DNA from: Clostridiales bacterium
Lineage (GTDB): Bacteria; Bacillota; Clostridia; Lachnospirales; Lachnospiraceae
NCBI GenBank assembly: GCA_021202925.1
Contig: JAJQCD010000034.1
Location: forward strand, 54,146-118,145
DNA: 64,000 nucleotides
Direction: 5' to 3'
Program-made: the position numbers and the translations under genes
Shown: positions 22,098 through 25,093 of the stretch, piece after piece
Numbering within the stretch: position 1 is the stretch's first letter
How the letters are laid out: every line of letters begins with the position of its first letter
Notes under the pieces: generated by a model
Database searches by the model: none
What the model saw: only the letters and a program-made list of their open reading frames with translations
What the model was told of the DNA's origin: nothing

Positions 22098-22279
22098 CCA
22101 AACCCCTCCACCCTGATTTTCTGATTCTTATTCTACCTGAAAATCTCCTGTTGCGCCAGCAGAATCCGACAACATGCGTCAGGAACGATTACCTGGGCGC
22201 ATGTTTCTTCCTTTCCCATGTAAAAAGGCAGGCCGAAGCCTGCCGATCGTTCGTTTCTCTGTTTGATTTTCCGGATCCC

Positions 22280-24373
22280 TCAGACCCGCTCGTCCTCCCC
22301 GAGCAGATTGGTCATGCTCTGCAGACTGACGGCAATTGTCGACATATTGTGAAGCAGTGCCGAGGTCGCGGGCGCAAGGATACCGCCCACGCCCAGCAGA
22401 ATCAGCCCCAGATTGAAGCTGATCACAAAACGATAATTACGGTGAACACGCTTCATCAGGCTGTTGCTTAACATCTTCAACATCACCAGCCCGGCCAGAT
22501 CATCCTCAGAAATCGTGATGTCTGCAATCTCGCGCGCAATTTCCGCGCCTTCGCTGATCGCGACGCCGACATCCGCCGCAGACAGCGCCGGAGAATCGTT
22601 GATGCCATCACCGACCATGATTACTTTGTGTCCCTGTTTCTTCTGTTCCTCGACAAACCGTGCCTTGTCCTCCGGCAGCACCTCCGAAAAATATTTGTCG
22701 ACGCCAACCTTCCTGGCAATCGCCCGCGCCGCCCGTTCGCTGTCTCCGGTCATCATCACCAGATGCCGGATCCCATGCCTGCGAAGCGCACAAAGCACAT
22801 TCTCTGCTTCCCTGCGCACCGGATCTTCAATGCAGATCACTGCGGCCAGCCGCCCGCCAATCGCCATATACAGATGAGAATACGCCTCCGGCAGCGCGTC
22901 GAATGTCTCCTGGCCGCCCTCCGGAATCTCACAGTGTTCATCTTCAAACACGAAATGGAGGCTGCCGATGATCACCCGTTCTTCTCCGATCCGGGTCGCG
23001 ATGCCGTGCGCCACAATATACTCCACCTTCGTGTGCATTTCGTCATGAACCAGACCCCGCCGCAGTGACTCGCGAACCACCGCATTCGCCATCGAATGCG
23101 GAAAATGCTCCTCCAGGCAGGCGGCAATCCGCAGCATCTCGTTCTGGTCTCTGCCCTCGAACGTCACCACATCAACCACTGTCGGCTGCGCCATCGTCAG
23201 GGTACCCGTCTTGTCAAACACAATCGTGTCCGCCTCTGCCACCGCCTCCATGAATTTGCCGCCCTTGACCGTGATGTGATGCTGACTCGCCTCGCGAATC
23301 GCGGAAAGCACCGCCAGCGGCATGGACAACTTCAGCGCACACGAGAAATCCACCATCAGAATTGATAGCGCCTTGGTCACATTGCGCGTCACAAACCAGG
23401 TCGCCGCCGTACCGCCCAGACTCCACGGAACCAGCGCGTCCGCCAGCCGGGCTGCCTTGCTCTCCACGGAGGATTTCAGTTTTTCCGACTCCTCGATCAT
23501 CGTCACGATGCGCTCAAACCGGGTGGCGCCGGCCGCTTCTCTGACGCAGATGGTAATCTCGCCTTCCTCCACAACCGTTCCCGCATAGACGTAAGCCCCT
23601 GCCGCCTTGCGCATCGGAATCGCCTCCCCGGTCATGGATGCCTGATTCACCATCGCTTCGCCGGACACGACAACGCCATCCAACGGAATCACGGTACTCA
23701 CCCGAACCGTGATCCGGTCTCCGGCTTTCACTGTAGAAACCGGGACCAGAATCTCGCCATCCTCCGTATTCAGCCATACCTTGTCCACATGCAGCGACAT
23801 GCTGCCGGCCAGATCGCCCACCGATTTCTTATGCGTCCACTCCTCCAGCAGCTCGCCGATCCCGAGCAGAAACATCACAGAACCCGCCGTGTCAAAATCT
23901 CCTCTCAGGATCGAAACCGTAATCGCAGTTGCATCCAGCACTTCCACCCGCAGCTTTCTCTCCAGAAGAGCCCGCATGCCCTTTCCCACATAGCGGAGTG
24001 CCCGCAACACCGTAGCAGCCGCACGCACCGGCGCCGGGAGAAACGTCTTCATCAGCGCACGGGTACAGAGCCGTCCCACCAGTCTTTCTTTGTATTCGCT
24101 GTTCAGTGCACGCGTGCTGTTCTTCGGAACATTTTCATAAAGCTTCTCATTTTTCCAGGAAAACCGGCGAATCGCCGCAATCAGCGCCTCGCGGCTTCCT
24201 GTATAACCGATCACCGCGTCCGCGGTCCGCTCATAGACCTTCACCAATCCTACGCCAGGCAGGTTTCCCAGGTAGTACGCAAACTGGTCGGCCTGGTCCA
24301 TCGTCAGCATCCTGCGCCACAGATGAATCCGCATCCGACGTCCCCTGATCTCATGCCTTATCTCGAACTTCAT
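22280..24373 (-). CDS. P1B-type heavy-metal ATPase with SCA-type membrane motif
   Basis: DKTGTLTMAQPTVV; MVGDGINDSPALSAADVGVAIS; VDFSCALKLSMPLAVLSAIREAS; N-terminal HMA-like region lacks CxxC. Confidence 0.92.
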   Translation of the reverse strand: MKFEIRHEIRGRRMRIHLWRRMLTMDQADQFAYYLGNLPGVGLVKVYERTADAVIGYTGSREALIAAIRRFSWKNEKLYENVPKNSTRALNSEYKERLVGRLCTRALMKTFLPAPVRAAATVLRALRYVGKGMRALLERKLRVEVLDATAITVSILRGDFDTAGSVMFLLGIGELLEEWTHKKSVGDLAGSMSLHVDKVWLNTEDGEILVPVSTVKAGDRITVRVSTVIPLDGVVVSGEAMVNQASMTGEAIPMRKAAGAYVYAGTVVEEGEITICVREAAGATRFERIVTMIEESEKLKSSVESKAARLADALVPWSLGGTAATWFVTRNVTKALSILMVDFSCALKLSMPLAVLSAIREASQHHITVKGGKFMEAVAEADTIVFDKTGTLTMAQPTVVDVVTFEGRDQNEMLRIAACLEEHFPHSMANAVVRESLRRGLVHDEMHTKVEYIVAHGIATRIGEERVIIGSLHFVFEDEHCEIPEGGQETFDALPEAYSHLYMAIGGRLAAVICIEDPVRREAENVLCALRRHGIRHLVMMTGDSERAARAIARKVGVDKYFSEVLPEDKARFVEEQKKQGHKVIMVGDGINDSPALSAADVGVAISEGAEIAREIADITISEDDLAGLVMLKMLSNSLMKRVHRNYRFVISFNLGLILLGVGGILAPATSALLHNMSTIAVSLQSMTNLLGEDERV

Positions 24374-24449
24374 CCATTTCTCCTCCGATCATCCATATCA
24401 GACAAAAACGCCCGAAAGCCATGCCTCCGGGCGGTCGGATTCAACCATC

Positions 24450-24746
24450 TCAGGCCTCATCTGTCTCCGTAACATCCTCTTTTGCTTCTTCGCTCTCATC
24501 CTCGAAGACTTCCTTCTCCGCACGCTTCCGGTTGATCTCCTTTGCCTCCGCCAGAATATCCTCCGCATTTTCCTGAATCGTGTTTGCCGTCGTCATCACA
24601 CTGTCCTTCGCACGAAGTCCCGCGGCCAGGCAGCCGACATAACACTTCTTCGCATCGCTGCTTCCCAGCACCTTCATCCCCGCCGTTCCAAACAGAACAC
24701 CGCCCGCAAACAAAGCAATCTGTCTCAAACATTTCTCACTCAACAT
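24450..24746 (-). CDS. small DUF6110/PacL-like membrane protein
   Basis: MLSEKCLRQIALFAGGVLFGTAGMKVLGSSDAKKCYVGCLAAGLRAKDSVM then acidic/Ala tail; immediately upstream of P1B ATPase. Confidence 0.75.
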   Translation of the reverse strand: MLSEKCLRQIALFAGGVLFGTAGMKVLGSSDAKKCYVGCLAAGLRAKDSVMTTANTIQENAEDILAEAKEINRKRAEKEVFEDESEEAKEDVTETDEA

Positions 24747-24767
24747 CGTCTTATCCTCCTCATTTTC

Positions 24768-24848
24768 TCACTTATGATGATAACCCGTATACAACGTCAT
24801 TGCCAGGCAGAAGACCATGGCCCAGGCCCAGAATCTGTGCTGTTTCAC
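24768..24848 (-). CDS. 26-aa single-TM microprotein (GTG start), not in supplied ORF list
   Basis: (V/M)KQHRFWAWAMVFCLAMTLYTGYHHK; preceded by GGGAGAGGTGAACTG; 21 nt before the PacL-like start. Confidence 0.6.
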   Translation of the reverse strand: MKQHRFWAWAMVFCLAMTLYTGYHHK

Positions 24849-25093
24849 TCCAGTTCACCTCTCCCTGCAAATTTATCGTGAATCTGTCTTCACTGCACTC
24901 ATCATAGCACTCTGCCCCCTTGTTAGTCAATTGTAACTTTTTCGAATTGGTGTGTTTTTTTGAATATATTTTTTTGAATTCCGAAAATTCGGTAGCCGTT
25001 GCTAACGTTTCTTGACAACTTGTTAGCCCGTTGCAACCGGACTGGTTTTACGCTATACTGTAAAAATAAATCAATGAAACAGGAGAACCCAGG

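Follow-up and report, generated by a model that had tools for sequence, protein, structure and literature searches.

A putative ferrosome-type iron-storage operon with a conserved 26-residue membrane microprotein in a Clostridiales bacterium

Main Finding

A three-gene operon in a gut-dwelling Clostridiales bacterium is read here, with a probability of about 0.74, as a ferrosome-type (FezAB) iron-storage operon that carries a new, previously unassigned microprotein subunit. It lies in the window, the whole 64,000-nt stretch of DNA that was analysed (contig JAJQCD010000034.1, positions 54,146–118,145), and encodes a 26-residue membrane microprotein, a 98-residue protein of the DUF6110 family and a heavy-metal P-type ATPase. 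Ferrosomes have so far been described in few bacteria, and the presence of DUF6110 in 116 of 249 sampled Lachnospiraceae genomes (about one per genus) indicates that many gut Lachnospiraceae and their relatives carry the kit. The operon also links two uncharacterised Pfam families, DUF6110 and DUF6219, and the conserved microprotein is a new part, open to testing, of a kind that ordinary annotation tends to miss.

In the mechanism that we propose, low iron would derepress the operon, the DUF6110 protein, as a FezA-type scaffold, would insert its glycine-zipper helix into the membrane and then oligomerise, and the oligomer would draw the FezB-type P1B-6 ATPase together in patches or vesicles of membrane, where the pump would move Fe(II) into the membrane compartment for storage. 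Partial termination in the gap that separates the DUF6110 gene from the ATPase gene would leave the cell with more scaffold than pump. The microprotein may be a small accessory subunit in the same membrane, acting either as a KdpF-like holder of the complex or as the source of a ligand for redox chemistry or iron, namely its invariant His. Organelle formation, the direction of transport and the metal carried in this organism, and the physical binding of the microprotein, are what we infer from the evidence below.

The Operon and Its Three Genes

The sequence-only reading had placed three ORFs on the minus strand, in the order microprotein, DUF6110 protein and P-type ATPase, and all three are present in that order. 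The features of the locus are as follows:

24901..24930, minus strand: promoter-like site TTGACT-18-TATGAT with TG extension, 5′ of the microprotein gene (consensus match only)
24768..24848, minus strand: MKQHRFWAWAMVFCLAMTLYTGYHHK, a membrane microprotein of 26 aa with a single helix, started by GTG and heading the operon
24450..24746, minus strand: DUF6110 protein (PacL-like, putative FezA type), 98 aa (PF19605, E 4e-30)
24409..24433, minus strand: intrinsic-terminator-like hairpin, 11 bp followed by TTTTT, between the DUF6110 and ATPase genes (from sequence)
22280..24373, minus strand: P1B-6-type heavy-metal P-ATPase (putative FezB type), 697 aa, with an arginine-rich N-terminus (TIGR01525)
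22227..22244, minus strand: terminator-like hairpin 3′ of the ATPase gene, the putative operon end (consensus match only)

The GTG of the microprotein ORF is preceded by a purine-rich, Shine-Dalgarno-like stretch (GGGAGAGGTGA), and the ORF ends 21 nt before the ATG of the DUF6110 gene. That ATG is preceded by GAGGAGG and the ATG of the ATPase gene by GGAGGAG, and it is plausible that each of the three genes has a ribosome-binding site. In the window the operon lies between a LysR gene and an rRNA methyltransferase-like gene, with no feo gene flanking it, and the locus showed no FezC gene.

The 98-residue protein scores 104 bits against the Pfam profile of DUF6110, whose cut-off is 26, and is laid out as one glycine-zipper transmembrane helix, a long amphipathic helix and an acidic tail; an AlphaFold model of low confidence (pLDDT 69, pTM 0.30) has helices at residues 4–27 and 30–89. 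The ATPase scores 486 bits against TIGR01525 (cut-off 346). Its SCA motif, already pointed out from the sequence, lies in SCALKLSMP at residues 344–352, with HN at 675–676; an SCA-type motif in TM4 and an HN in a late TM helix are what a ferrosome P1B-6 ATPase should have. The suggestion that its N-terminus is an HMA-like domain devoid of CxxC is plausible, the Clostridioides orthologue matching HMA_2 at E 7e-6, which is below the cut-off.

Orthology to the Clostridioides Pair

One comparison in favour of the ferrosome reading is with a 4.26-Mb, single-contig genome (G313) in which a class-level search found one DUF6110 gene, adjoining an ATPase gene. The window ATPase and this sole DUF6110-linked P-ATPase are 60% identical over 691 aa, end to end. 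The DNA beside the DUF6110 gene of G313 matches 14 phage records, and since 13 of these are named Clostridioides phage, the genome is assigned to Clostridioides. According to reviews, the membrane protein FezA and the P-type transporter FezB of C. difficile are Fur-repressed and build ferrosomes, and the ferrosome operon is also named fezXAB in the literature. The G313 ATPase is best read as FezB, and on the basis of these reviews the Clostridioides DUF6110–ATPase pair is very probably FezAB.

As with FezA/FezB, a single operon encodes a small glycine-zipper membrane protein together with a P1B-6 ATPase. The ATPases are orthologous from end to end, and at the level of the family the Fur boxes and feo neighbours described below are a further likeness; the other ferrosome systems compared were the fez clusters of Desulfovibrio and Rhodopseudomonas. 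The operon in the window differs in having a conserved 26-aa microprotein, which is absent from the Clostridioides locus, and a putative internal terminator, and here the organelle is a prediction. At the G313 locus (L062, 4565–4846), an FMN-binding-like protein near the DUF6110 gene is seemingly frame-broken, with DAVSGATNSSK continuing in another frame.

The Microprotein Gene

By itself a 26-aa ORF would carry no weight, since the stretch with the operon is overlapped by 131 ORFs of 20 aa or more. Even so, in a profile search of 80 named DUF6110 loci, retrieved independently from a species-level genome collection, 57 have the microprotein directly 5′ of the DUF6110 gene, across Lachnospiraceae and Oscillospiraceae, and this conservation makes the ORF more than a product of chance. 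The consensus is M-K-x-H-R/K-F-W-A-W-x-x-x-x-C-x-x-M-x-x-Y-T-G-Y-K-H-K; in a wider alignment H4 and T21-G22 are invariant and the His at position 25 is not. Synonymous sites are saturated, and dN/dS comes to about 0.16. The ORF is a true gene.

Its occurrence is tied to that of DUF6110. Strong matches fell in DUF6110-containing genomes in 13 of 13 cases among 61 relatives (p 8e-8), in nine of nine among 289 genomes of the class (p 4e-11) and in four of four among 348 genomes of the phylum. Together with the 57 of 80 loci, this strongly supports the proposal that the microprotein is a third component of the system. That proposal had named independent occurrence of the small genes across genomes as evidence against it, and here the two genes behave differently: no strong single-unit match to the microprotein lies outside DUF6110 genomes in the samples of relatives, class and phylum, and DUF6110 does occur without the microprotein. 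Many DUF6110–ATPase pairs, that of Clostridioides included, are without it, and the core function can therefore do without the microprotein; in Clostridioides and the other DUF6110 genomes that seemingly lack it, only noise-level matches were found.

Not every copy is adjacent to DUF6110. Four genomes (G339, G253, G155 and G006) have microprotein copies unlinked to it, with heterogeneous neighbours in which no shared function was seen, and at L190 (G270) a diverged microprotein, MKSHKFFAWLTVIAFIMTMITGYKNR, is encoded 3′ of the ATPase gene rather than before DUF6110. One genome (G089) has two complete microprotein–DUF6110–ATPase loci, L068 and L069. Diverged DUF6110–ATPase pairs with no microprotein, at L050–L056 and mostly from Clostridia family f51, have gene starts nearly back to back.

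What such a protein might do is suggested by KdpF, the protein of about 30 aa with a single helix that is encoded first in the operon of the KdpFABC K+ pump. The microprotein, 26 aa with one hydrophobic helix, likewise heads a P-type ATPase operon, and a regulatory subunit of the KdpF or sarcolipin type, binding the transmembrane domain of the ATPase and setting its activity or stability, would account for the purifying selection and for the link to the ATPase/DUF6110 pair. The chances of this role fall somewhat short of even. KdpF shows no sequence relation to the microprotein (none of 26 microprotein members matched it) and serves another class of ATPase, and binding of the microprotein to its pump is a prediction; moreover, an invariant His, Cys and Thr-Gly would be unusual for a purely structural helix, and two-helix relatives of the microprotein, in DUF6219, sit beside peroxide-defence genes.

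Iron Context and the Relation to PacL

The gene neighbourhood and regulation of DUF6110 loci point to iron. A feoA, feoB, fur, dtxR or FeoB-associated HMA gene lies within 4 kb in 36 of the 80 loci, on the same strand in 34. Fur-like boxes, defined by at most three mismatches, were found in 41 of 77 operon upstreams and in 17 of 151 control upstreams, these being other upstream regions of the same loci (p 2e-11). The promoter of the operon in the window has no Fur box, the best candidate having five mismatches. It does have a weak DtxR-like site, GTTAGCAACGGCTACC, at about −158, of a class that is also common in the controls; DtxR-like boxes were not used as evidence for that reason. No Rfam element matched upstream of the operon. 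In several loci (L086, L101, L106, L111, L115 and others, and L040) a FeoB-associated Cys-rich membrane segment is fused to an HMA domain, and the fusion gene stands between feoB and fur, just 5′ of the DUF6110 operon. Most likely, the metal is iron rather than a toxic metal to be effluxed.

The competing view takes its cue from mycobacterial PacL1/CtpC platforms, in which a DUF1490 protein accompanies a P1B ATPase: acting as scaffold or chaperone, the DUF6110 protein would bring a P1B6 ATPase together in clusters that export excess Zn, Cd or Fe from the cell, with no organelle. The sequence-only reading had gone some way toward it by proposing the DUF6110 protein as an analogue of PacL/DUF1490. 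The likeness is real: both systems have one transmembrane helix with conserved Lys and Gly (K9, G17 and G20 in PacL; K8-9, G16, G20 and G23 in DUF6110, forming a similar groove), an Ala/Glu-rich helix after it and a P1B ATPase partner, the ATPase gene lying downstream of DUF6110 in 78 of the 80 loci. The sequence relation is distant. The window protein scores 15.1 bits against DUF1490, under the gathering score of 28.4. Of 10 DUF6110 proteins, four match DUF1490 (E 0.003 at best), and no other second Pfam family recurs among them; a plasmid search for DUF1490 turned up only two Deinococcus DUF6110 proteins. The literature describes DUF6110 proteins as distant DUF1490/PacL relatives without the metal-binding motif, encoded with P1B6 ATPases (PMC9374683, PMC13043812). 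The link to PacL is therefore already published and not new; as an account of descent the comparison is correct, and as an account of function it is incomplete.

It is on function that the two part. The C-terminal Asp/His metal-binding motif of PacL was not found in the window protein, whose acidic tail (EVFEDESEEAKEDVTETDEA) has no His, and the ATPase has SCA where CtpC has CPC; the window system also belongs to another phylum and to an iron-linked context. Given this tail, and given the neighbourhood and regulation, the designation of "metal chaperone" is unsupported. Fur boxes and feo/fur neighbours fit iron storage or uptake better than resistance, albeit export of iron is possible, and an efflux platform is judged an unlikely account of the operon.

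DUF6219, a Duplicated Relative

The microprotein has a longer relative in DUF6219 (PF19727), a Pfam model of 69 residues at full length. The window microprotein scores 19.3 bits against it (cut-off 27) and is a half-length relative rather than a member; all 26 microproteins tested match the family, the best at 3e-8. DUF6219 is a tandem of the microprotein unit, with two His-aromatic...Cys...Thr/Ser-Gly helix units in which His4 and His30 are invariant at matching positions, Cys40 is at the place of the microprotein Cys14, and Gly recurs at equal spacing. It, too, co-occurs with DUF6110: among the 249 family genomes, 49 match DUF6219 or the microprotein, and DUF6110 is present in 45 of these (p 2e-13); of the 16 with full-length DUF6219, 15 have it.

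The two differ in that DUF6219 has two helices and lies at separate loci, often in a DUF6219–bcp–yaaA cassette (L029 and L227–L235, from other Lachnospiraceae genomes). The bcp and YaaA products of this cassette are mostly 90–99% identical across many genera, which suggests horizontal transfer, and the cassette is apparently a peroxide/iron-defence island that has spread horizontally in gut Lachnospiraceae. In E. coli, YaaA lowers the free-iron pool under peroxide stress, and so the cassette again points to iron. Sub-threshold matches of DUF6219 comprise DUF420, DUF4079, Cytochrom_B_N_2, Ni_hydr_CYTB, PepSY_TM and OFeT_1, which seem to lean toward haem-binding membrane families and are a lead.

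A second role for the microprotein follows this lead: as a minimal helix binding haem or iron, it would provide the redox chemistry of the ferrosome and take the part played in other ferrosomes by FezC, a haem-b cytochrome whose sites are proposed to form by homodimerisation. The invariant His4, and its counterparts His4 and His30 in DUF6219, could be the ligands, and Cytochrom_B_N_2 and Ni_hydr_CYTB are among the sub-threshold matches. These matches are far below cut-offs, however, and short helices match many models; neither the microprotein nor DUF6219 matches DUF4405, position 25 offers no invariant second His, and binding of haem by a 26-mer would require oligomers. The role is improbable on this evidence, and its fuller form, in which microprotein and DUF6219 oligomerise into a redox module that stands in for FezC, is slightly more so. 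If the redox reading were true, a 26-residue protein would be among the smallest redox subunits known. An accessory subunit of the ATPase or scaffold is the more likely role, and a haem/iron redox helix the more surprising one.

That the ORF is a leader peptide controlling translation or transcription of DUF6110, as its position 15–160 nt upstream might suggest, was rejected as highly improbable, because strong matches occur in DUF6110 genomes even when unlinked or, in G270, behind the ATPase gene, and because the spacing is variable and no Rfam element matched.

A Putative Internal Terminator

Half of the DUF6110–ATPase gene pairs (46 of 92 loci) overlap or are separated by a gap of less than 15 nt. 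Where the gap is at least 40 nt, a terminator-like hairpin lies between the two genes in 29 of 39 loci, against 0.3 expected from shuffles, which would fit a set scaffold-to-pump ratio. Across these 29 loci the hairpin is kept in position, not in sequence.
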